From: Pleurocapsales cyanobacterium LEGE 10410
Lineage (GTDB): Bacteria > Cyanobacteriota > Cyanobacteriia > Cyanobacteriales > Xenococcaceae
NCBI GenBank assembly: GCA_015207195.1
Contig: JADEXJ010000024.1
Location: forward strand, 1 to 53,242
Direction: 5' to 3'
DNA length: 53,242 nucleotides
The notes below the pieces were generated by a model. The model saw only the letters and a program-made list of their open reading frames with translations. It had not been told where the DNA came from and did not search any database. This document shows positions 10,631 to 24,022 of this stretch, one piece after another. Numbering within the stretch: the stretch's first letter is position 1; every line of letters starts with the position of its first letter. A program made the translations under genes and the position numbers.

Positions 10631-12385
10631 CTATTTTTGTTTCAGAATAACCAAAGTTATGTCGTCATATACTTTTTCTGCTCCAATATGCGATCGCAAG
10701 TCTTCGATCACTGCTTGCCTAATATTTTCTGCTGTCTGTTGCCAATTTTGCTGTACCACAGCGCATAGTTGGTCTAAGCCATAATGTTCTCCCGCATAAT
10801 TTTCTGCCTCCGTAACACCATCGGTATAAAGTACGACAACATCTCCCAGATTCAAACAAACTTGCGCCTGAAAAACGAAGTCTTCAATGGTTTCTTCCAA
10901 ACCAATGGGAAAACCCAAATCAACCGTGTCTATTCTTTCAATTTCACCTTTAGAACGTACTATCAGTATTTCTTCATGCTGACCGCTTAGAGTAAGAACG
11001 CCATCACGATAATTAATCAAACACAGAGAAAGATTCTTATCAGAATCCATGCGCTGCACGTTTTTATAAATGGTACGATTTAGCACTTCAAAAAAGTGTT
11101 TGGGGTTGGTTTCATTGTTTTCCATCAAGGTGCGAACCGCAGTCTGCACCATCAACATTAAAACACCACTTTCCAAACCATGTCCCGTCACATCACCGAT
11201 ACCAATCGTAATCCGTCCATGATGCTGAAGAACGTCGTAATAATCTCCACCAACTTCAGCAGCAGGTTCCATAAACCCAGCAATTTCTAAATTCTCAATT
11301 TGCCTGAGTTCTTTTTCTTTAGGCAGCAGCATCATTTGTAAACGCTGAGTAATCTCCAACTCAGTACTGAGACGAGTGTTTTCAGCCTGTAAACAATAAT
11401 TTAACTTATTGATCTCTTGATTTGCCTGAGCTAGCTGTTCTAGATAAGATGATTCACAGTCTCTGAGCCTTTTTTGTTCCAAACAGGCTCCCAATCTAGC
11501 CTTCAATAATGTTGAATTAAAAGGTTTGGTCAGATAGTCTGCTGCTCCCATTTGAATACATTTAACCACGCTATCAATCTCATCAAGAGCCGAAATCATG
11601 ATGGTGGGAATATGTCGCCAGGAACCAGAGCGAATCCATTTTAGAACCTCATAACCGTTGATCTCTGGCATGACAATATCTAGCAAGATCAGATCGTAAG
11701 CTCCTGTCTGGATCATTGCTATAGCTTGTTTGCCATTGTCGGTACTAGCAGCCTGATAACCTTGCGCTGCTACTTGTCGAGACAGCAAATCTCGATTGGT
11801 CGCACTGTCGTCTACAATCAAAATACTGTAGTTGTCAGTTGCTGGCGGTTTGTCAAAATCAATCGTTGAAATGCTAGTTGTCTCGCGAATTGCCTCGATT
11901 TTGACTCGGCTGGCTGCTGCTATTTCTGACGAAACTGATAAAAAACCTGCATCAGCTAATTGGAGTGGAGTTTTGGTTAATTCATTAATCTCATGTAATA
12001 GCTTATTAGCAGCAAGATTAATTTTTTCTAGATCGCTGACAAAATCTGTCTCAATTGAATCAACTAACTGTTGGCAGCGATCAATAACTAGCTGAGTTGA
12101 TTTTTCTAACTCTATCTTCAATTCTGGATTACCAACAATTTCAGTCAAATCTAGCTGGGTGTTTGGTAAGACTGTAGGGTTGAGAAAAGTATCAATCGAG
12201 ATCGATAATTCGACACCATAGGCTTTGATTTGCTCTAGTTCTTTTAAACATTCTAAGTCAATGCCACCTTCTTCCATTTCTTCTATAATCATTTCGCTAT
12301 AGCCAACGATCGCATTAATCGGTGTACGCAGCTCGTGACGCAGATGAGAAAGTATAGATAACTGCAATTTACTATCGGTGGTCAT
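10631..12385 (-). CDS. HisKA-REC-PP2C (SpoIIE-type) phosphatase
   Basis: A 584-residue signalling protein. Residues 10-40 match a HisKA dimerisation helix with phosphoacceptor H17 (RHELRTP), but no kinase ATPase domain follows. A receiver domain spans about 186-300 with D236, and a coiled coil about 310-350. A SpoIIE/RsbU-type PP2C phosphatase runs from 365 to the end, with metal-binding D381 (GGDYYD) and D398 (GDVTGHG), VLYTDGVTEAEN and DDITLVIL. Such proteins dephosphorylate STAS proteins in partner switching when the receiver is phosphorylated. The isolated HisKA helix could act as a phosphotransfer or dimer module. Its neighbours are a CheY-like gene upstream and the GHKL gene downstream. 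Confidence 0.85.
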   Translation of the reverse strand: MTTDSKLQLSILSHLRHELRTPINAIVGYSEMIIEEMEEGGIDLECLKELEQIKAYGVELSISIDTFLNPTVLPNTQLDLTEIVGNPELKIELEKSTQLVIDRCQQLVDSIETDFVSDLEKINLAANKLLHEINELTKTPLQLADAGFLSVSSEIAAASRVKIEAIRETTSISTIDFDKPPATDNYSILIVDDSATNRDLLSRQVAAQGYQAASTDNGKQAIAMIQTGAYDLILLDIVMPEINGYEVLKWIRSGSWRHIPTIMISALDEIDSVVKCIQMGAADYLTKPFNSTLLKARLGACLEQKRLRDCESSYLEQLAQANQEINKLNYCLQAENTRLSTELEITQRLQMMLLPKEKELRQIENLEIAGFMEPAAEVGGDYYDVLQHHGRITIGIGDVTGHGLESGVLMLMVQTAVRTLMENNETNPKHFFEVLNRTIYKNVQRMDSDKNLSLCLINYRDGVLTLSGQHEEILIVRSKGEIERIDTVDLGFPIGLEETIEDFVFQAQVCLNLGDVVVLYTDGVTEAENYAGEHYGLDQLCAVVQQNWQQTAENIRQAVIEDLRSHIGAEKVYDDITLVILKQK

Positions 12386-12464: not shown

Positions 12465-12839
12465 TCAAGCTTTACCCAAAAAAGTTTGTATTTTAGTTAA
12501 CAAGCGCGATAATTCGATGGGTTTAGTATCATAATCATCACAGCCAGCTGCTAAAGCTTTTTGACGATCATTAGACATTGCATGAGCCGTCAAAGCAATT
12601 ATGGGGATAGATTTAGTGGCAGGATCGGTTTTAATATTTCTGGTAGCTGCCCAACCATCCATCACGGGCAAACTCATATCCATTAAAATCAAATCGGGAG
12701 TTTCTGAATTGGTCACCTCTACGCCTTCTGCACCATTAACCGCAATCAAGACCTCATAGCCCCGACGCTTCAATCTGCGCGAGAGCATATCGCGGTTCAT
12801 TTCGTTGTCTTCAACTAACAGAATTTTAGGCATAATCAA
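12465..12839 (-). CDS. Single-domain response regulator, CheY-like
   Basis: The 124-residue protein is a lone receiver domain with the full active site: acidic pair in LLVEDNEMNRD, phosphoacceptor in LILMDMSLP, threonine in IIALTAH and lysine in DTKPIE. It has no output domain and would shuttle phosphoryl groups or bind a partner. It sits 37 bp after the multi-REC hybrid kinase and 79 bp before the PP2C protein, so it is likely the relay between them. Confidence 0.85.
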   Translation of the reverse strand: MIMPKILLVEDNEMNRDMLSRRLKRRGYEVLIAVNGAEGVEVTNSETPDLILMDMSLPVMDGWAATRNIKTDPATKSIPIIALTAHAMSNDRQKALAAGCDDYDTKPIELSRLLTKIQTFLGKA

Positions 12840-12876: not shown

Positions 12877-15075
12877 TTAGCCAGACACAGTAGTCGGAGT
12901 AGACTCAGAATCTAGTCTGTTCTGCTGCCGAGCGATCGCTTCGTCTAGTAAACGACTAACCTCATCGAACAATACTGAACGTTGATATGAACCCTTCTCG
13001 AAGATTTTGCTAACTTCACCATTCAATTTTTGACGTTCTTCAACCGTAATACTCTTGGCGGTCAAAATAATTACTGGAATAGAACGCCACTGCTCATTTT
13101 GCCTCAGATGATAAACTAGTTCAAAACCATCCATTTCAGGCATCATCAAATCGGAAAGAATCAATCCTGGAGTAATTTTTTTTAGCTTGCTCAACGCCTC
13201 AAGTCCGTTTGCTGCCTCAATTACCTGCCAATTTTCCTTTCTTAATTGACGAGATAACATCTCTCTGATGCCAGGGTCATCTTCAACTACTAAAATAGAT
13301 TCGGAATCAGCAACAGGCTTAAATCTACTCAAAATAACCTCTAGTTTTTGATAATCGACTGGTTTTAAGACATATTCTGCTGCTCCTAAAGCATAACCAA
13401 GGTTTCTGTCGTTAACTATGGTCATCATAATTACAGGAATATCCGCAGTTTCAGGATCGGATTTGAGAGCCGTCAATACCGACCAGCCATCCATACCAGG
13501 CATCATCACGTCTAAAGTAATAGCTTGTGGCTGAAGTTTTTTGGCTAGTTGTATTCCTTTTAACCCACTGTTAGCTATTTTGACCTCAAAACCCTTCTTA
13601 TTTAAAAAGCGTTCTAATAAATTATGGATTGTAGGGTCGTCATCAATTACTAGAATAGAGTTCTTCTGATTGGTGCTGGCTTTTAACCTGGCAGTTTTTT
13701 GAGACTGGTTGGGTTTTGGTGCAGTTGACTCAACTACCCGAACTGGAAGATTAATAGTAAAGCTCGAACCAGTTCCTAATTCACTTTCTACGCTAACATC
13801 CCCCCCCATCATTTGACAGAATTTTTTGGTAATCGCCAGACCCAACCCTGTTCCCCCATACTTACGGGTAGTAGAAGCATCAGCTTGAGTAAAAGCCCGA
13901 AACAATTTGCCGATCTGTTCTGAACTCATGCCAATTCCTGTATCAGTAACCCGAAAAGAAACAAATTTCTCCCCTGCTACGATACAAGAGGTTACGTTTA
14001 AAGAAATTTTGCCATTCTCGGTAAATTTGCCAGCATTACTTAGCAAATTAAATAAACTTTGACGCACTTTAGTTAAATCCGCGTGCATCATTTTCAAATC
14101 TTCTGCAAGATTAAATTCTAAAGTATTATTGTTTTTGTCAATCAAAGGATGAATCGTAGATACGGTCTCATCGAGCAAACTTTTAATGCTGAAAGTTTCT
14201 AAATATAGCTCCGTACGACCAGCTTCAATTTTTGACAGGTCAAGAATATCGTTAATCAAAGATAAAAGATGCTTTCCTGCACCATGAATTTTTTGGAGAT
14301 CGGGAATAAAATCATCCTGTCCAATATCTTCTGCTTCTTCCATCAGCATTTCACTGTAGCCAATGATGGCATTCATCGGAGTACGCAATTCATGACTCAT
14401 ATTGGCTAAAAATTGACTTTTTGCCTGATTAGCTTTTTTTGCTTCGCTCATACTTTTAGCCAATTCTGCCGTGCGCTGTTCTACGCGAATTTCTAACTCT
14501 TTTTTTTGCTGAACTAACTCTGCTTGAGCCTGTCGTAGAGTTCTCAAGGTACGAGAAAGCTTGTTAGTTCGCTCCTCTACTCTTTCTTCTAAATCATGGT
14601 TTAACTTGAGCAAAGAGTTTTCTACCCGTTCCCGTTGCAAAATTTCTTTCCTCAGCATTCGATTCTGCTCTTCCAAAGTTCGGGTTAGGTTACAAAGCTG
14701 CAACTGGACTTTAACTCTGGCTATGACCTCTTCTCGTTGAAATGGCTTGGTAATGTAGTCAACCGCGCCAAGAGCAAAACCTTTAACCTTATGTTCGGTA
14801 TCAGACAAAGCGGTCATAAAAATGATGGGAATATCATAAGTATCGGGGTTAGATTTAATCTTTTGACACGTTTGATAACCATCGATACCTGGCATCATTA
14901 CGTCCAACAAAATTAGCTCTGGCTTGTAATACTGGATTTGCTCTAGAGCGTTTTCTCCATCAATGGCAACAGCAATTTGAAACCCTGCTTTAGTTAAAGT
15001 TTCAGATAAAACTTCCAGGTTATTATGGTTGTCGTCAACAATTAAAATACTGCGTGAACTAAAATCGTCTGTCAC
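12877..15075 (-). CDS. Hybrid histidine kinase, REC-HisKA-HATPase-REC-REC
   Basis: A 732-residue cytoplasmic kinase. The first receiver covers about 8-122 (D58), then a coiled coil to 215, then HisKA with H228 (MSHELRTP). The ATPase domain spans about 335-445 (N-box around [22 protein letters not shown]). Two more receivers follow, with D522 and D641. There is no membrane segment or sensory domain, so its input must come by phosphotransfer to the N-terminal receiver or by binding. It lies 68 bp after the HNOBA kinase in the same direction, which makes it the probable second tier of the H-NOX pathway. Confidence 0.85.
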
Positions 15076-15143: not shown

Positions 15144-17600
15144 TTATAGATACTGTTCGATAAAAGACTTGATTTGTCTCAGCTTAAACTTTTTCGCCAA
15201 ATCCCTAAGTTGTTGAGTAAAAGGCTGATATTTGGACTCTAGCTTTTCGATCCGCTCAATTTCTTTGAGCAAATCGTTGATCAAACCCTTGCGACTTAGA
15301 TCGTGGAGTATAGCAATCTCCTCAGCAGGAGGAGGTATAATTTTGGTTTCCTGAGTAATTTGGACTACATTATTTGAGGTTTGAGATAATTCACTTAATT
15401 CAGTTGGCTGCTGATAGAGCCACTCCAGGTTTAAATGTGTCTGTAAAGTCTGCAACAAAGTTTCTTTTTGTATTGGTTTGGGCAAAAAATCATTTGCTCC
15501 AACCTGAAGGCTTTTTTGGCGATCGCTCTCAAAAACGCTGGCAGAGGAAACGATTATCACCAAGTCTGAAGCTATTGCCGAAGATTGACGCAGTTGAGCG
15601 GTCATTTCATGTCCATCCATAATTGGCATAGACAAATCGGTAATAATTAAATCTGGTTGCCACTCCAGAGCTTTATTTAAACCAGCTTTGCCATTTTCTG
15701 CCTCCAGCATCTCGAAACCAAGGGGTTCAAGCAAATTGACCACAACCGAGCTATTTTCCCAGCAATTATCAACTACTAAAACTTGGCGTTTTTTTCCTGC
15801 ATAGCCAATAATTTTAGATGTGCTAGCTGAAAGGAGTTGAGAAGCTTCTGCCCAAGATTTAGTTTCTTTGAGGTTAATATCAAACCAGAAAATACTGCCT
15901 TGGTCTAATTTGCTGCTAACTTTCAGTTCACTGCCCATCATCTCGACAATTCGATGGCTGATAGCTAAACCCAAACCAGTACCTCCTACTTGTTTTTTCG
16001 CGCTTCCTACCTGCTCAAAGGGCAAAAAGATTTTGGTTAACTGCTCTTGGCTCATCCCCGTTCCAGTGTCTTGAACCTGAAACCGAATTTGCTCATTTTC
16101 TATCATTTGGATTTTGAGAGTAACCGCACCGCGATCGGTAAATTTAATCGCGTTACCGAGTAAATTAATCAATACCTGTCGCAGACGTATATCATCTCCT
16201 TCCACGCTCGCAGGCAGGCGATCGCCTGGTTCATAAAGAAACTCGATTCCTTTTTGTTCTGCCTTAATTGAGCAGATTTCCACCACCCCTTGTAAAAAAG
16301 AGGGAAAATGAAATTCTGAAATATGCAGCTCCGTTTTCCGCGCTTCAATTTTAGAAATATCAAGCAGATCGTTAATCAGAGTCAGCAAATGGGTACCACA
16401 CTGATAGATAATTGCCACTCCCTTCTGCTCTTTCTCGGATAAGGTCGTCGATTGCCTGAGAATTTGAGCATAGCCCAAAATACCATTGAGAGGAGTACGC
16501 AATTCATGGCTCATATTTGCTAAAAACTCGCTTTTAGCTTGATTGGCAGCATTGGCTACTTTCTTGGCATTCTCAGCTCGGTATCGTTCGGCAAATTGTT
16601 CTAATCTTAGACGAATATCAATGATGGTTGTTTTTAAACTTTCTTCTAGGTTGTCAATTTCAGAGCTAAAAAATTCAAAAATTTGAATTACTGCTTCTCC
16701 TTGTTTGATGGCAAACGCAAAAGCTCTTCTTAATCCAGCTTCATAGGCGCGATTGTATCTAGAACAGTTGGGGAAATCAACGATATCCTCGATCCAGATC
16801 GGCTTGTCTCTTTGATGAATCGAATGCACCAAGCCTAAATCAGTATGTAGCGAAACAGTTTTGCTAACTGCTCTGAGTGCAGCATATTTATCCTCATCAG
16901 TTGTCCAAAAATTTTCAACTTTAGGTAAATCAGTTGTTCGATCTATACTCCACAAGATACCTACCTGACAGTCAAGAGTCGTGCCAATTGTTCCTAAAGC
17001 TTTGTGAGCAGCTTCTTCAAAATTGGAAACTTCTTCTAAAATTTTGGTAATCGAATATTGAACTTGGAGCTTTCGGTTAGTCTGATTTAATTTTATTTTT
17101 TGCTCAGTTAATTTTTCTGTGAGATTTCTACTATCGGACAAAGCAGTGTTTTGAGCTTGAATTAAAAACAGATAGTCAACAACTGGATCGTGAGTGGCAA
17201 AATCTTTGAGAGATAAATTAAATGATTTTAAAGACTTCAAATCTGTAATCCAAGGAGAACACAAAAAAAACATGAGATTTTGCTCTTTGACAAAAATCAT
17301 CTGCCCTTTCAAAGGCATATTGTTGACCAGAGATTTTAATAAAAATAAAGAGCGAGTTTTTTGACAAATTAGCTCAAATGTTAAAGAGATGTTAGGGCGA
17401 TCAAGAACAAAATGATCTTCAAGTAAATTGCCAAAGGTTATTTGAGGATAAAGGCGAGCCAAAACCTTGCCCACTTGAACAATTCTTAAATTGCTATCAA
17501 ATACTAAATGAAAGGGGAAAATTGAATTTAATAGTTCAGGGGAAAGACTATAGTTATAAAAGAGCTGATTATTTACTGATAGTTCAGTTGAATCTAGCAT
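15144..17600 (-). CDS. H-NOX-associated hybrid kinase, HNOBA-GAF-HisKA-HATPase-REC
   Basis: An 818-residue kinase. Residues 22-150 match the HNOBA (H-NOX-associated PAS-like) domain of soluble guanylate cyclases and H-NOX kinases: [33 protein letters not shown] and [10 protein letters not shown] coiled coil, a GAF-like domain (about 185-335), HisKA with H365, an ATPase domain (about 465-575; [14 protein letters not shown]) and a receiver (about 605-725, D655) follow. The receiver's acidic pair reads D-N rather than D-D. About 75 residues with helical character close the protein. It starts 88 bp after the H-NOX gene, whose product should regulate it by direct contact, as known for cyanobacterial and other bacterial H-NOX/kinase pairs. 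Confidence 0.9.
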
Positions 17601-17688: not shown

Positions 17689-18249
17689 TTATCGGTTACG
17701 AGGCTGGTACTCAACCAAGAATTCATCACAATCACTTCCCTGCTCGCGTTTTTGAGTCTGAGTAATTTCTACATCTGTATCAAATCTTTCTCCCAAACCC
17801 TTGACTAAACCATTAACCATGGGTGCAAGTCCTTGGCGATGGGAATGATATTTCAATTTAAGAGATTTGGCTTCCGTTGCTGCTTCACATTCAAAAGAAG
17901 GAGGCTGAAGTTTGGGAAAAATAACTCCAACGCGAGCGTGCATATCATCAAGATTTTCCAGAAATTCAGGCAAGGTGTCACCGCTCATCGCTAACATTTC
18001 GCCATAGCCTTCTTGAGCAGTGTATTTTACCCAATATTCACCAAAAGCTTGCATGATTTCGGCTGAAGATATTTCGAGAACTTCACTTGCAGCTTTTACT
18101 AGTCTATGAGTTACGTCATCAGGATATCCTTCCATACTGATAAATGTTTCTAAATCTAGATCCGCTATTTTTTTAATTTCTTGCCAAATTTCTTGCCCAT
18201 GATTAGTACAAACCATATCTTCAATAGCCTTATTTACCAAACCATACAT
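17689..18249 (-). CDS. H-NOX heme nitric-oxide sensor
   Basis: The 186-residue protein is a stand-alone H-NOX domain of usual length. Diagnostic features are the N-terminus MYGLVNKAIEDMV, the proximal heme ligand H104 (NLDDMHARV), and the heme-propionate motif YxSxR at Y134, S136, R138. Five residues after R138 there is P143, where oxygen-binding H-NOX proteins carry a distal tyrosine; this favours NO over O2 binding. The frame is open to 18369, but ATG 18249 is the start: it gives the canonical N-terminus, has an AAAGGGA ribosome-binding site about 8 bases upstream, and the longer version would run across a terminator hairpin. The HNOBA kinase follows. Confidence 0.93.
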   Translation of the reverse strand: MYGLVNKAIEDMVCTNHGQEIWQEIKKIADLDLETFISMEGYPDDVTHRLVKAASEVLEISSAEIMQAFGEYWVKYTAQEGYGEMLAMSGDTLPEFLENLDDMHARVGVIFPKLQPPSFECEAATEAKSLKLKYHSHRQGLAPMVNGLVKGLGERFDTDVEITQTQKREQGSDCDEFLVEYQPRNR

Positions 18250-18326
18250 TATGTAATCCCTTTGATTTAATACTCGTTCTATCTTATGAATACCCAAATG
18301 CTCTAAGCTAAATAACAAATTGAACC

Positions 18327-18375
18327 AAAAAAATCCCTGGTTGTCTAAATAGCATAATGATTCAGACAACCAGAG
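18327..18375 (-). terminator. Rho-independent terminator between oxygenase and H-NOX genes
   Basis: On the minus strand a 12-bp stem with one possible G-U pair (18375-18364 with 18346-18335; core CTGGTTGTCT/AGACAACCAG) has a 17-base loop and is followed by ATTTTTTT. It lies 26 bp after the stop of the oxygenase fusion gene and about 80 bp before the H-NOX start. It would end or attenuate the methyltransferase-oxygenase transcript. Confidence 0.85.
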
Positions 18376-18401
18376 ACTTGATAATTTGATATTTTTTAGC
18401 T

Positions 18402-20078
18402 TTAAAACATATCTGAAACTCGATACCCTTTCAAATAAAATCCATTATTTTTTCTTATTTTCGCTTGTTCAATTGTTTCATCAAAAACTACTAGCTTTTG
18501 ACTACCGAATTTGAGCCATTCTGAGTAAGGAATACTCATATCTTCTTCGACTCCAGCCTGATTGGAATCAACCATTGCGCGAAAAGATTCGTTGAATTTT
18601 CTACGAAAACGGAAGTCTACAGAAATTCTCAATCCACTAGATTGATGACGCACGGTATGATGTAAGCCTCGCGCATCATTGAAATACATAGTTCCTAACT
18701 GAAGCTTGGCATCTTCATATTTAACCGCCATTCTAATATCTCTGCCCTCATCAAAACTAGACATTACCCGCATTGAAGGTAACTCCATTTCTGGAGGCAT
18801 TTCTCCAGCTTCGATTGTAATATTGTCGATATTGCCAAACAAGGGTAAGACTACGACCGTAGCATCTGCTGGAACTCCAGCCCAAACGTCACTGTGAACT
18901 TTAGAGCTAGTAAAAGGAAGTTTAGCTTTTTCTGGGTTGCTTTTGCCATAAACCATTCGTAGATTGACTGGTAAATCTACTGCATCAATTAGATCGTTCG
19001 CTCCTAACTGATAAAATGCTTGAGCAACACTTTTTTGAAAAAGATTGAACTCTAGAATGTGTTCCCGTTTAGGAGCAAGCAACCCCGTACCTGTATAATT
19101 GACCAAATTTTTTCGTTCCGCCAGCAGTTTTTCTAGCATTTCTGCTTCAGAAAGAATAATTGGACTACCTAGACAAGTAGAAATATATTTAGCTGCTGCA
19201 ATTTTGATGTCTTGGAAAAGTTCGGGCTTGAGTTGATGTTCAAACAGTAGTCGATGTTTTTTCGGGCGATTGGCGATTCTGTCGGCTAACTCATTAAAAA
19301 GGCGATCGCCTTCTTGGGAAAAAGCTAATGCTTGACTTTTGGCGATTTCGTTTTTTGGTTTAACAGTGCAATACTGTACAGGAGTATTAGCAATTTGGCG
19401 TTCAACTCCATTAAAAAATTCGACCCTGGCATCCATAGCTTCCAAAATAGCGCGATTGATATCTGTAGCCTGCTCAGAATTAGTAATTTGTTTTTCTAGC
19501 AACACAGCCATATTTTGAGCATGATCGTCATCTAGATCGATATGAAGATGAAAGAAGAGTAAGTCATCTTCCGAAAATGAACCAGCATTTGTAATCCCTG
19601 CTCGCAATTGAGTATAGAGAGTGCGAACAATCCCTTCTGACGCAAAGCAAACTGCACCTACTGCTGCTAAATATCCATATTCCTCAGCCAATTTTAAATA
19701 GATGTCGATCAAATTTTGAGTTTCAGGATTAGCAGGAGTTGAATCTAAAGTCTCGTCGTCAATACCCAAAGCTCTAGTAAAGCGTCGATACAGCTCTGGA
19801 TGAGACATATCAGGATTACCCAAGCCTGTTTCATCCAGCAAATTTTCCATAATGACTATCTGAGAATCAGGATCGGAACACTGGGCAGCAATACTGGATA
19901 AAATATTGCAAAATTCTTTACAGAATTTGTACATTTGAACGGCTAAGATTTTTACCTCAGCCAAAGTTAGACTTTGGTTACGGCATCGTGTCAAAAACTC
20001 ATGATTCCATAGAGGGTGATTATAAGTAACTTGACGGAATGTATCTAAAATTGGTAAGGATGAGTTTAAGGTTTTCAT
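18402..20078 (-). CDS. Fusion of HDO-type diiron oxygenase and Fe(II)/2OG-like oxygenase
   Basis: A 558-residue protein. The N-terminal part (about 10-235) is a heme-oxygenase-like diiron oxidase (HDO, as in SznF, BesC, UndA and CADD). Likely iron ligands are E83, H93, E148 and H179-x3-D183-x2-H186, plus possibly E55. The C-terminal part (about 370-495) has HSD (H395, D397), H474 and R484 ten residues later, the pattern of Fe(II)/2-oxoglutarate oxygenases. HDOs oxidise amines or C-C bonds; SznF joins an HDO to a cupin to build an N-nitroso group. Substrate here is unknown. The start overlaps the methyltransferase stop by four bases, indicating translational coupling. Confidence 0.8.
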   Translation of the reverse strand: MKTLNSSLPILDTFRQVTYNHPLWNHEFLTRCRNQSLTLAEVKILAVQMYKFCKEFCNILSSIAAQCSDPDSQIVIMENLLDETGLGNPDMSHPELYRRFTRALGIDDETLDSTPANPETQNLIDIYLKLAEEYGYLAAVGAVCFASEGIVRTLYTQLRAGITNAGSFSEDDLLFFHLHIDLDDDHAQNMAVLLEKQITNSEQATDINRAILEAMDARVEFFNGVERQIANTPVQYCTVKPKNEIAKSQALAFSQEGDRLFNELADRIANRPKKHRLLFEHQLKPELFQDIKIAAAKYISTCLGSPIILSEAEMLEKLLAERKNLVNYTGTGLLAPKREHILEFNLFQKSVAQAFYQLGANDLIDAVDLPVNLRMVYGKSNPEKAKLPFTSSKVHSDVWAGVPADATVVVLPLFGNIDNITIEAGEMPPEMELPSMRVMSSFDEGRDIRMAVKYEDAKLQLGTMYFNDARGLHHTVRHQSSGLRISVDFRFRRKFNESFRAMVDSNQAGVEEDMSIPYSEWLKFGSQKLVVFDETIEQAKIRKNNGFYLKGYRVSDMF

Positions 20079-20944
20079 TTGATTATTTCAAAAGCAACGT
20101 GAAGTGGAAGGTCAACAATAGGTGAAAAGAATTCGGCATCAAGTTGAAGATGCTCTGGCGTAACATGAAGCTCTTTGAGTACTGGCAAAGTTGAGAAGCC
20201 AGCACTTTGCAATGATTCAAAGTAATCTTGAAAAGTCTTGTGAACAAGCTGTACATCCAGCCAAGAGCCGTCTCGTTTCCAGATACGACCAGGAAATAGA
20301 TTATCTCTACCGCTAAAGTAGTTGTTTTGGTCTACTTGAAAATAAAAAGGAGGATTTTTTTGTCCCATATAGGGGAGGGCTGGATGGGGGACGCTAAATA
20401 TAAATCGTCCACCAGGACGAAGAACCCTCAAAACTTCACTCATGCACTGTTTAGTTTGTTCGACCGTTAAATAGTTAAACAGAAAAACAGCAACCACCAG
20501 ATCGGTTTCATCATCTGCTAATTGGCTCAAGTCGGTAGCACAGTTAGCTTCGTAACTAATGCCCAATGGCTCTTTAGCTTCTTGAGCTTGAGCTGCTGCA
20601 ATCATCTTTTGAGAAAGATCGATGCCATGAACTTTTTTTGCTCCACGCTGACGTAATTCACGACTGCAATAGCCTTCTCCACAGCCCAAATCGAGTATTT
20701 GCAATCCAGCAATCGGTTCACACATTTCAATAACTGCTGGTCGAGCCGTGAAATCTGACAAAGAGCTAGGTTCAGTTCTTACCCAACGAAGTGCCGTATT
20801 GTCATATAATTCTTTAGTTTTAACTTTTTCCGTTGATGTTGCTGATAATTCAAAATCATCGTTTTTTTCAGCTGCTTCTTGACTAGAATCTTGATAATTT
20901 TTGATATGAGATAAAACTAAGGGTATTTTTTCTGCTGGAAACAT
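20075..20944 (-). CDS. SAM-dependent methyltransferase (class I)
   Basis: A 289-residue class I methyltransferase. SAM-binding motif I is ILDLGCGEGYCSREL at about residue 83, motif II HGIDLSQKMI, and the post-motif LRVLRPGGRFIFSVPHP is typical of small-molecule methyltransferases. An N-terminal extension of about 60 residues precedes the fold and includes YDNTALRW. The last codon overlaps the start of the diiron/Fe-2OG fusion gene, so the two enzymes almost certainly act in one pathway. It is the promoter-proximal gene of the leftward block, opposite the GGDEF-EAL-GGDEF gene. Substrate (N, O or C methylation) cannot be told. Confidence 0.85.
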   Translation of the reverse strand: MFPAEKIPLVLSHIKNYQDSSQEAAEKNDDFELSATSTEKVKTKELYDNTALRWVRTEPSSLSDFTARPAVIEMCEPIAGLQILDLGCGEGYCSRELRQRGAKKVHGIDLSQKMIAAAQAQEAKEPLGISYEANCATDLSQLADDETDLVVAVFLFNYLTVEQTKQCMSEVLRVLRPGGRFIFSVPHPALPYMGQKNPPFYFQVDQNNYFSGRDNLFPGRIWKRDGSWLDVQLVHKTFQDYFESLQSAGFSTLPVLKELHVTPEHLQLDAEFFSPIVDLPLHVAFEIIK

Positions 20945-21514
20945 ATAACTCTCTCATTTCATTCAAATGTTATTTACAGTAATAACAGCTACAACATCTA
21001 TGAGAAATGATTGAGATCACATCTTATAAAAATATCTTTTTAAATTATTTAAAATTACAAGACAAAGATTTTTACTGTATTTATTCCTAATAGAAAACAT
21101 GATAGTTCTTTGCTTTTGTTGTCTATGTCGCGAATAAAAAGCACTGATTACTGCTGTTAATCTCGAAAGCAAATTAATTAAACTACATTTTTGGTCGTCA
21201 AGAAAAATTGTGGAGCGAAGATTGAGATTAAATTTAAAAGCTCGACCAATTTATAGTTGTGGTTTCAGAGTATTGGTTGCTGATACTACTCTCAAACTGC
21301 TTAGGTATCAAGATGCCTATGCTTATCAATATTACCAAAAAAGCTTAATTTAATTCGTCTGGATTTAGAGCCACAATTGGCAAAAGACAGAGCATATCCC
21401 GATCAAAATCACAGTTACTCTGACTTTCTACCCTTAAATTTATAAATACACAAAAGATTATCTAAGTTAATTAGTTTTTTGATCGACAATATATGTTAAT
21501 TGGTAATTGATCCG
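20945..21514. promoter_or_regulatory. Divergent intergenic region with both promoters
   Basis: A 570-bp spacer between the leftward methyltransferase gene and the rightward GGDEF-EAL-GGDEF gene, so it must hold both promoters. I cannot place them with confidence. A stop-free frame at 21138-21353 (plus strand, ending in RYQDAYAYQYYQKSLI) has no good start and may be a gene remnant. Confidence 0.4.
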
Positions 21515-24022
21515 ATGTTCTATGAAATGCGATTCAAACTGGGAAAAGAAGCTCATTTGACTCAGGCTGACTTTCCACCTAACACTTCATCATTCATTGA
21601 AAGTATTCAAAATGCCGTTATTATTTTTGATGAGATTAAAAACTGCTTATTGCTAAATTTTGCAGCCGAACAAATATTAGATAATCGCTCTGACATTTCA
21701 TTCATAGGAGATTGGATTAGAGAAAAGATCCAAAATCTCTCACAGCAAAAAGCGTTCAAGCTGCAAGAATTGCCTTGGGAGATGGCTTCAATCAATAAGT
21801 GGGGGTTAGAAGTAGAGGCAGTACTAAGCAAGCTAGAGGCAGCAAATGAGTTTGGACAACAATTAGATTGCCACAAGGCATTAGTTGTTCGAGAACCTAG
21901 AATTAAACCTAGCTATACTCGTAATTTTAAAACCTTACAGCCAGAATTTTTGACCAACACTATAAGCTATGACCGATTGACAGGATTGCCTAACTATAAT
22001 TTATTGTTGGAATACATTGAGCAGGAAATTAACTTTTGCCAGCAAAGACGGGGATATGAATTTGTAATTCTATTTGTTGATATTAATCGCTTTAAAGTAA
22101 TTAATAGTAGTTTGGGCAGAATATTAGGCGATCGCCTGTTAATTGCTATTTCCGAAAGATTACAAAGAATTATCAGATCTCATGATTTTATCGCACGTAT
22201 GGGGAATGACGAATTTACTATTTTATTGAGCAATGTCGAACATTTAGAATATGCCACCAATGTCGCTGAGAGAATTTATCGAGAGTTAAGTATACCTTTT
22301 AACCTTGAGGGTTACGAAATTTTTATTGAAGCAAGTATCGGTATTGCAGTAGGCAACCAAGAATATCGTCAACCAGAAAATTTGTTAAGAGATGCAGAAC
22401 TAGCCGTATCTGACGCTAAAAGGCAAAATAAATTTCATTATCAAATATTTAACCAGTCAATGCGTGGCAAGGCTCTAACTTTACTACAGTTAGAAAATGA
22501 TTTGAGAAGGGCAATCAAACGTGAAGAATTTATTCTGCATTATCAGCCAATTATGTCTCTTGGAGATAGCCAAATTAGAGGCTTTGAAGTATTGGTGCGT
22601 TGGCGACATCCTGAGAAGGGATTAGTCTCTCCAGGAAAATTTATTCCCCTGGCAGAGGAAACAGGATTGATTATACCTTTGGGTTTCTGGGTGCTAAAAA
22701 AGGCTTGCCAACAAATGTATGACTGGCAAGTTGAATTCAATAGTTTGGCTGATTGGAAAGTTAGCGTCAATATTTCTAGCAAACAGCTAGAACTGCCTAA
22801 TTTCGTGGCTCAAGTCAAACAAATTTTGCGAGAAACCAAGTTAGATCCTCATAACTTAAAGCTGGAAATTACTGAAAGTTCCTTAGTTGAAGATACTCAA
22901 CATACGATAGCAATTCTGAAAGAGTTGAAAGCTTTGGGAATTGAATTTTCTTTGGATGATTTTGGAACTGGTTATTCTTCTTTAAGTTATTTGCATCAAT
23001 TTCCTTTTGATACCCTTAAAATCGATCGTTCTTTTATCAATAGCGTTGGCGATAACGTTGAGAAATTAGGTATAGTTCGCGCTATTGTTAGCCTAGCTCG
23101 CAATCTAGGAATGAACACTATTGCAGAAGGCATAGAAACAGTCGAGCAATTGGCGCAGCTAAAAGCGTTAGAGTGTCAATATGGTCAAGGATATTATCTA
23201 TCGAAACCATTGGATAAAAATATCTTAGAAAGTATAATTGCAACAGAAATTGCCAGTCCCCAAGAAATTGAGTCAAAAGATTATCAACTGCTGTTAGATG
23301 AACAAATAACTAAAGAGCAGCTAATATTTCAAATTGAACATCTGCGTCAAGAGTTAGAAGAGTTGAAGCTCGAAAAAGCCGATCTAGAAATCTTGCTAGA
23401 TACGACAACCGAACACGCCGACATAGTAGAGTCTCAGCTGCATAACGAAATTTGCGATCGCCAAAAAGCTCAAGCCGCGTTGAGCCTAGCCAATAGAGAA
23501 CTTGAAAAACTGAGTGTGCTAGATAGCTTGACTCAAGTAGCCAATCGCCGTAGGTTTGACGATTACTTAATTCAAGAGTGGCAAAAGCTTAAGCAAGAAC
23601 AAGCTCCTATTGCTTTAATTTTATGTGACATCGACTACTTTAAGCTTTATAACGACACTTACGGTCATCTTGTCGGCGATCATTGCCTACAGCAGGTGGC
23701 TCTGGCTATTGAGTGTGTAATTGAATCAACTCTAGGTTTGGTGGCTCGCTATGGGGGAGAAGAATTTGGCATTATTTTACCTCATGTCGATTCAGACAAA
23801 GCATTTAAAATAGCGCAGAAAATTGCGGTCAACGTTGAGAAGTTGCATATTACTCATCAAAAATCTTTAGTTAGTCAGTATGTAACTATTAGTTTAGGAG
23901 CGCACAGCTTAATTCCTTCTGCTGAATCTACCCCTGAGCTATTAATTGCTCGTGCTGATAAGTCACTATATCAGGCTAAAGAAGAAGGCAGAAATTGCGC
24001 CTGCTTGTATGTTCCACATTAG
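21515..24022 (+). CDS. GGDEF-EAL-GGDEF cyclic-di-GMP enzyme
   Basis: The product has about 835 residues. An N-terminal region of about 160 residues (possibly PAS-like) precedes three catalytic-type domains. The first GGDEF reads GNDEF with an RSHD inhibitory-site motif five residues before it; it is probably not a cyclase. The EAL domain reads EVLVRW but keeps its metal and catalytic residues (VNISSKQL, EITESSL, DDFGTGYSSL, LKIDRSF, AEGIET, QGYYLSKP), so it should hydrolyse c-di-GMP. After a coiled coil the last GGDEF reads GGEEF, intact, without an RxxD site. ATG 21515 is preferred over TTG 21500. It is divergent from the H-NOX block. Confidence 0.9.
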   Translation: MFYEMRFKLGKEAHLTQADFPPNTSSFIESIQNAVIIFDEIKNCLLLNFAAEQILDNRSDISFIGDWIREKIQNLSQQKAFKLQELPWEMASINKWGLEVEAVLSKLEAANEFGQQLDCHKALVVREPRIKPSYTRNFKTLQPEFLTNTISYDRLTGLPNYNLLLEYIEQEINFCQQRRGYEFVILFVDINRFKVINSSLGRILGDRLLIAISERLQRIIRSHDFIARMGNDEFTILLSNVEHLEYATNVAERIYRELSIPFNLEGYEIFIEASIGIAVGNQEYRQPENLLRDAELAVSDAKRQNKFHYQIFNQSMRGKALTLLQLENDLRRAIKREEFILHYQPIMSLGDSQIRGFEVLVRWRHPEKGLVSPGKFIPLAEETGLIIPLGFWVLKKACQQMYDWQVEFNSLADWKVSVNISSKQLELPNFVAQVKQILRETKLDPHNLKLEITESSLVEDTQHTIAILKELKALGIEFSLDDFGTGYSSLSYLHQFPFDTLKIDRSFINSVGDNVEKLGIVRAIVSLARNLGMNTIAEGIETVEQLAQLKALECQYGQGYYLSKPLDKNILESIIATEIASPQEIESKDYQLLLDEQITKEQLIFQIEHLRQELEELKLEKADLEILLDTTTEHADIVESQLHNEICDRQKAQAALSLANRELEKLSVLDSLTQVANRRRFDDYLIQEWQKLKQEQAPIALILCDIDYFKLYNDTYGHLVGDHCLQQVALAIECVIESTLGLVARYGGEEFGIILPHVDSDKAFKIAQKIAVNVEKLHITHQKSLVSQYVTISLGAHSLIPSAESTPELLIARADKSLYQAKEEGRNCACLYVPH

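Follow-up and report, generated by a model that had tools for sequence, protein, structure and literature searches.

A methyltransferase and diiron oxygenase gene set recurring beside the H-NOX sensor suggests a small molecule tied to gas sensing in cyanobacteria

Why should a methyltransferase and a two-domain oxygenase be encoded directly beside a haem-based gas sensor? The question is raised by a locus of Pleurocapsales cyanobacterium LEGE 10410 (GenBank assembly GCA_015207195.1, contig JADEXJ010000024.1), of which we analysed a stretch of 53,242 nucleotides, hereafter the window. On its minus strand, the stop codon of an S-adenosylmethionine (SAM)-dependent methyltransferase (MT) gene overlaps by 4 bp the ATG of a gene for a 558-residue fusion, which joins a haem-oxygenase-like diiron oxygenase (HDO) domain to a putative iron- and 2-oxoglutarate-dependent (Fe/2OG) oxygenase domain, here called OG; an H-NOX sensor gene and a kinase relay come next, on the same strand. 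An initial annotation had described this fusion, its coupled MT and the H-NOX cassette, all of which were found in place. MT and HDO recur in numerous cyanobacteria and in a small number of betaproteobacteria, almost always with a third enzyme and in most cases beside an NO-type sensor, which hints at a hitherto undescribed small molecule tied to gas sensing. The enzyme-coding features of the window are as follows.

20075–20944, minus strand: SAM-dependent MT, 289 residues, first gene of the unit (Pfam Methyltransf_25, 6e-23)
18402–20078, minus strand: HDO–OG fusion, one open reading frame (ORF) encoding a single polypeptide of 558 residues
19374–20078, minus strand: HDO domain, fusion residues 1–235, ligands E83, H93, E148, H179, D183 and H186 (Haem_oxygenas_2, PF14518, 4e-26)
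18402–19343, minus strand: OG domain, fusion residues 246–558 plus stop, putative Fe/2OG oxygenase with H395-x-D397, H473 and R484

Recurrence of the MT–HDO pair and its linkage to H-NOX

A single scan of the genome_contigs collection, limited to relatives that retain one of two short peptides, returned 52 loci (50 cyanobacterial and two betaproteobacterial, the latter at 46–58% identity), or 53 with the window; L numbers below denote surveyed loci and G numbers genomes. MT and HDO share a strand in all 53, with the exact 4-bp overlap in 39, and H-NOX is at most 3.1 kb away in 48. The linked H-NOX gene is on the same strand downstream in 43 loci, divergent in the three from Acaryochloris, and on the same strand upstream in the two from betaproteobacteria. 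The same picture emerged from 388 cyanobacterial genomes, where the MT family (E≤1e-50) was found in 19 and H-NOX in 48, all 19 falling within the 48 (hypergeometric 1.4e-19, and 5e-12 when counted by genus, neither value being corrected for descent). The outcome that the initial annotation had named as fatal to its proposal, homologues that are widespread and away from H-NOX, was not observed.

When the fusion was used as query, 48 of the 388 genomes of the class matched at 1e-10; 15 of these hold OG, the window's own included, and 19 have a closely related HDO, complete or partial (a fragment in G115), the rest being distant HDOs. MT–HDO adjoins H-NOX and a kinase with an HNOBA domain in 17 of the 18 other close-HDO genomes, the exception being G115, which has lost MT and part of HDO and kept H-NOX. 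The co-occurrence with H-NOX that the initial annotation had put up for checking stands for the pair, and the fusion itself was seen in the window alone: none of those 18 genomes carries it, as 14 have OG as a separate gene (G182 on a different contig, L043) and four lack OG. The fusion was accordingly rejected as the common form, since every other locus with both enzymes shows separate HDO and OG genes. A search of a plasmid collection gave a single distant match.

Two further arrangements were observed. L042 (9076–10970) is a decayed cassette that retains OG and H-NOX together with a C-terminal HDO fragment, MT not being found there; it was left out of the 53 loci. At L098 (7312–10639), MT is separated from a shortened HDO by an ORF of 526 residues that runs in the opposite direction and looks by eye like a transposase gene.

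The oxygenase domains and the third enzyme

The PF14518 match covers fusion residues 46–218, and the six ligands read by the initial annotation are identical in all 55 aligned HDOs, including the divergent proteins of L147 and L112. With three histidines and three carboxylates on a haem-oxygenase fold, the N-terminal domain can be assigned from its sequence to the HDO superfamily, and a putative dinuclear metal centre for O2 activation is predicted, as in that superfamily. Among solved relatives, the best profile matches were CADD (1rcw, 5.7e-20), a second 4-aminobenzoate (pABA) synthase (2.8e-17) and BesC (1.6e-14), followed by the N-oxygenase HrmI (3.4e-8) and, weakly, UndA (0.0025) and SznF (0.55). 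The PF14518 and CADD matches, together with a gene set kept in 53 loci, place the MT/HDO/OG arrangement far beyond chance. The domain scored 91.8 bits for the CADD/PabS family (NCBIfam TIGR04305, cut-off 200) and 40.3 bits for the BesC family (NF042919, cut-off 500), and hence falls outside the latter.

The accessible text of PMC11965152 describes CADD as a self-sacrificing HDO, with a role for the sacrificed Tyr27 and Lys152 and equivalents in NePabS. The positions of CADD Tyr27, of the essential Tyr43 and of Lys152 are occupied by Leu/Val/Phe, Leu/Ile and Leu/Ile/Phe, respectively, all 55 rows lacking Tyr and Lys there (one row is gapped at both Tyr positions), so that a self-sacrificing pABA synthase was ruled out. 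According to the available sections of PMC13108848, about a dozen HDOs are characterised, their reactions include C–C cleavage and N-oxygenation, and SznF, unlike the others, carries a C-terminal cupin; its substrate is a methylated arginine (section 8). An SznF-like system is unsupported by the profile value above. SznF-type N-oxygenases have an extra Glu ligand (3H/4C), supplied by an auxiliary helix; at the level of sequence, an alignment of 18 rows shows no invariant Glu between E83 and H93. HrmI shows that N-oxygenation is possible without that ligand set (PMC13108848, same sections). Nothing specifically indicates N-oxygenation or NO production here; the link between these enzymes and gas sensing, which the initial annotation inferred for a small N-oxygenated or otherwise oxidised metabolite, is supported.

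Pfam recognised no family in fusion residues 246–558 up to E=5. The HxD motif and the Arg of the second iron site, assigned by the initial annotation to H395, D397 and R484, are identical in 41 of 41 OG rows; its fourth residue, H474, has to be replaced. H473 is invariant in the 41 rows, whereas position 474 is Gln in 40 and His only in the window, where both positions are His, which makes H473 most likely the metal ligand. The structural model of OG matches Fe/2OG oxygenases of the PhyH/P4H type, phytanoyl-CoA hydroxylase being among the fold matches, in agreement with the Fe/2OG pattern noted earlier. OG is thus predicted from the model to be an Fe/2OG oxygenase, with an HxD...H facial triad and a 2OG-binding Arg on a double-stranded beta-helix. 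Membership of PhyH (PF05721) was tried and rejected, as no Pfam PhyH match was obtained in 15 members and the profile–profile probability was 0.7%, although HxD and the distal His fell in register. None of the 15 OG domains matches a Pfam cupin; the beta-helix core of the Fe/2OG enzymes matched by the model is common to cupins.

A third enzyme flanks MT–HDO in all 51 loci where it could be tested (L073 and L094, whose contigs break off on the side of MT, were left out): OG in 41, unfused in 40, a TauD-type Fe/2OG enzyme in three, and a dihydrodipicolinate synthase (DHDPS)-type aldolase in seven. The TauD-type enzyme, which is unrelated to OG, follows HDO in all three Acaryochloris loci; TauD was assigned by Pfam for L147 and for L048, the latter grouped with the Acaryochloris loci, and otherwise by blast to checked proteins. 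The aldolase flanks the pair in five cyanobacterial and two betaproteobacterial loci, the proteins of the two groups being 37–39% identical; it was assigned by Pfam for L096, L097 and L172, by matches to NCBIfam and the PDB for L081, and by blast for the rest. The L081 and L097 proteins score far under the NCBIfam cut-off for true DapA. OG was not found in the seven DHDPS genomes, in a search run without a positive control. DHDPS-family paralogues stand directly beside MT–HDO or HDO at the following positions.

L081, 7985–8872: DHDPS-family paralogue
L099, 8201–9094: DHDPS-family paralogue
L097, 10748–11656: DHDPS-family paralogue
L172, 979–1830: DHDPS-family paralogue

A search of the Rhizobacter family gave matches in seven of 329 genomes. 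Two are the known loci; a third, close one is a betaproteobacterial contig on which HDO, DHDPS, H-NOX and an HNOBA-GGDEF-EAL gene follow one another and from which the MT side is missing; the other four are distant HDOs (26–32%), around which the stretch examined gave no match to MT or H-NOX. At L173, also a distant HDO, a TauD-like ORF (30%) lies 2.7 kb away.

Because two unrelated Fe/2OG enzymes and one aldolase take the same place, and because a natural HDO–OG fusion exists, the third enzyme would belong to the same pathway as MT and HDO. Since that place can be filled by a TauD oxygenase or an aldolase, OG would be one of several solutions, and the occurrence of two oxygenases and one aldolase as natural solutions for one slot restricts the chemistry.

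The sensor, its relay and related gene sets

The remaining features of the window are listed below.

17689–18249, minus strand: H-NOX haem NO-binding sensor (HNOB, 1.7e-53), start corrected to Met41
15144–17600, minus strand: HNOBA–histidine kinase–receiver, presumed H-NOX partner (HNOBA 6.8e-32, HisKA, HATPase, Response_reg)
12877–15075, minus strand: hybrid kinase with three receiver stretches (Pfam)
12465–12839, minus strand: single-domain response regulator (Pfam)
10631–12385, minus strand: receiver plus SpoIIE-type phosphatase, end of the relay and its possible output (Pfam SpoIIE 5e-37, Response_reg)
21500–24022, plus strand: GGDEF-EAL-GGDEF protein, divergent from MT, membership of the unit uncertain (Pfam)
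18331–18379, no strand: imperfect inverted repeat between fusion and H-NOX, 20-nt arms, 85%, 9-nt gap

The ORF first listed for H-NOX (17689–18369) is over-extended, homology beginning at Met41. Its product is, by sequence, an HNOB-domain protein with the proximal His and the YxSxR motif, both of which are kept in 48 of 48 linked H-NOXs, and it is presumed to bind NO and to control the partner kinase. The nearest solved chain is Alr2278, the studied H-NOX of Nostoc. Alr2278 was rejected as the cassette type, as its five nearest H-NOXs in the sequences searched (71–80%) lie in stretches without the MT–HDO pair, three of those stretches being only 3.5 kb long. Outputs composed of a receiver and a SpoIIE-type phosphatase frequently target anti-sigma factors. 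In several cassettes an HNOBA-GGDEF-EAL gene stands between HDO and H-NOX (HNOBA confirmed by Pfam for L032); unlike that gene, the GGDEF-EAL-GGDEF protein of the window showed no HNOBA domain in Pfam. The inverted repeat is possibly a transcript element, and scans for promoters and terminators gave nothing above shuffled sequences. In a rapidly built tree of 78 H-NOX rows, with L042 entered as unlinked, the linkage label changes at least 10 times against a shuffled mean of 20, and well-supported branches force only four changes, a pattern compatible with repeated gain or loss of linkage.

Related sets were met outside the main family. G197 (L147, 5243–11186) has four genes in succession, for an MT (MT profile 4e-103), a TauD oxygenase, an HDO of divergent sequence (25%) and a hybrid kinase. 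The kinase carries an ethylene-receptor N-terminal domain (ETR1_N, 9.7e-33), and no second ETR1_N match was found in that genome, whose H-NOX is located elsewhere. An ethylene-receptor link as a general rule was rejected, as ETR1_N is common (209 of 388 cyanobacterial genomes) and G197 alone was seen with it beside such a set, no targeted survey of ETR1_N neighbourhoods having been made. In G122 (L112, 2835–5424), an HDO–cupin fusion with the domain order of SznF is divergent from an adjoining H-NOX, and its HDO part is 54% identical to the G197 HDO. Related HDO–cupin fusions in G010, G177 and G189 (L148, L149 and L150) are not near H-NOX, and those genomes gave no H-NOX match.

A putative pathway, its alternatives and known systems

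From this gene content and its conservation, MT, HDO and OG are probably the enzymes of one short small-molecule pathway and function as part of a signalling unit that senses gas. Together they would convert a common metabolite to a small molecule that is both methylated and oxidised. We infer that MT, HDO and the third enzyme share one pathway, as well as their order in it, and the HDO–OG fusion would hand an intermediate between its two active sites.

Several observations weigh against this reading. The 53 loci are neither independent nor complete, being mostly Nostocales by name and drawn from a two-peptide scan. The fusion occurs in one of the 27 genomes of the window's family and in none of the 26 others, so that the window genome probably acquired the cassette, and 37 of the 40 unfused OG genes lie on the strand opposite to MT–HDO, which places OG outside the MT–HDO transcript in most loci. 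H-NOX works without MT, as 29 of the 48 H-NOX genomes have none; in 20 H-NOX neighbourhoods (19 of those 29 genomes and G197), several on short contigs, no MT or OG was found beside H-NOX, and one has an HDO–cupin gene. Five cyanobacterial loci (L081, L085, L093, L098 and L099) have MT–HDO and DHDPS with no H-NOX within the flanks examined; a search of three of these genomes located a single H-NOX in each, away from the pair and of the Alr2278 type. The ethylene-receptor neighbour, finally, is a single case.

If the pathway reading holds, the product may be a diffusible signal synthesised beside its receptor, by analogy with other pairs of synthase and receptor kinase; that H-NOX merely switches production on or off is about as likely as that the product is sensed. 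In the switch reading, which we regard as tentative, H-NOX would sense NO (or CO) and only regulate MT, HDO and OG, and the product would be a protective compound or an ordinary natural product that the neighbouring receptor does not sense. The codirectional downstream position of H-NOX in 43 of the 48 linked loci and the HNOBA-GGDEF-EAL gene between HDO and H-NOX in several cassettes speak for it, as do known H-NOX operons, which the accessible part of PMC8846402 describes with kinases and c-di-GMP enzymes under H-NOX control and without mention of an MT, HDO or Fe/2OG enzyme. It leaves unexplained why a small enzyme set travels with two kinds of receptor, a weak argument as the second kind is one case. 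A bolder and rather unlikely version of the sensed product would make MT, HDO and the Fe/2OG enzyme (or aldolase) a dedicated synthase of a small, perhaps volatile signal and the adjoining H-NOX/HNOBA kinase (of the ethylene-receptor type in one genome) its receptor; cyanobacteria, and betaproteobacteria as well, would then carry a gas-like autoinducer circuit.

That the genes are inherited as mere neighbours, with no common function and an accidental fusion, appears improbable. The loci are mainly Nostocales by name and kin by descent, and both the five MT–HDO loci lacking H-NOX and the 29 H-NOX genomes lacking MT would suit such hitchhiking; against it, linkage is kept in Acaryochloris (divergent orientation, TauD for OG), in Leptolyngbya-type genomes (an extra gene inserted) and in betaproteobacteria (another gene order, DHDPS), and the checked active-site residues are invariant. 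The self-made NO source suggested by the initial annotation, a special case of the sensed product in which HDO would N-oxygenate a methylated amino acid nitrogen and the pathway release NO to the adjoining H-NOX, must be considered very improbable and gained no direct support: H-NOX is an NO receptor, HrmI is an HDO relative and SznF offers the precedent of an HDO plus cupin acting on methylated arginine (PMC13108848, in its available sections), but the closest HDOs are CADD/PabS and BesC rather than N-oxygenases, the third enzyme can be an aldolase, and one divergent set adjoins an ethylene-type receptor. Least probable of all, the enzymes would modify a cofactor or protein inside the signalling proteins or the cell and release no free metabolite; in favour, protein-derived chemistry is known from the near relative CADD (PMC11965152, accessible text), and against it, the positions of CADD Tyr27, Tyr43 and Lys152 are without Tyr or Lys here.

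The conserved set beside H-NOX offers concrete genes, a likely pathway and strains for a metabolite hunt. The HDO field gains a clade not yet characterised, which has an MT partner of its own, and OG represents an Fe/2OG-like family recognised by no Pfam model here. H-NOX is a well-studied gas sensor whose natural ligand and purpose in cyanobacteria are, to our knowledge, largely open.

As the initial annotation had supposed, no description of an H-NOX-linked HDO/MT set was found in the literature searched, subscription papers lying largely outside it. CADD and NePabS share the HDO fold and six-ligand set and give the best PDB sequence match, and differ in the sacrificed Tyr27 and Lys152. H-NOX/HnoK and H-NOX/diguanylate cyclase operons likewise pair H-NOX with an HNOBA kinase or an HNOBA-GGDEF-EAL gene, and differ in that no MT, HDO or Fe/2OG enzyme is mentioned in the accessible part of PMC8846402. 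BesC, the 4-chloro-allylglycine synthase, is an HDO with a clear profile match (1.6e-14) but lies far from the present domain by its family model (40 bits against 500). In its pathway the Fe/2OG halogenase BesD reportedly acts upstream, and we know of no MT or gas sensor in the BesC cluster. SznF also joins HDO to a C-terminal iron-binding beta-helix domain and uses a methylated substrate; its HDO is distant (E=0.55), and the C-terminal domain of the window resembles PhyH/P4H-type Fe/2OG oxygenases without a Pfam cupin match. Its partner is said to be an arginine methyltransferase, and no link of SznF to H-NOX is known to us. In quorum sensing, a synthase is paired with a receptor kinase in RpfF/RpfC and CqsA/CqsS; there too enzyme genes adjoin a receptor kinase, and as those enzymes and receptors are unrelated to the present ones, the likeness is one of gene layout alone.

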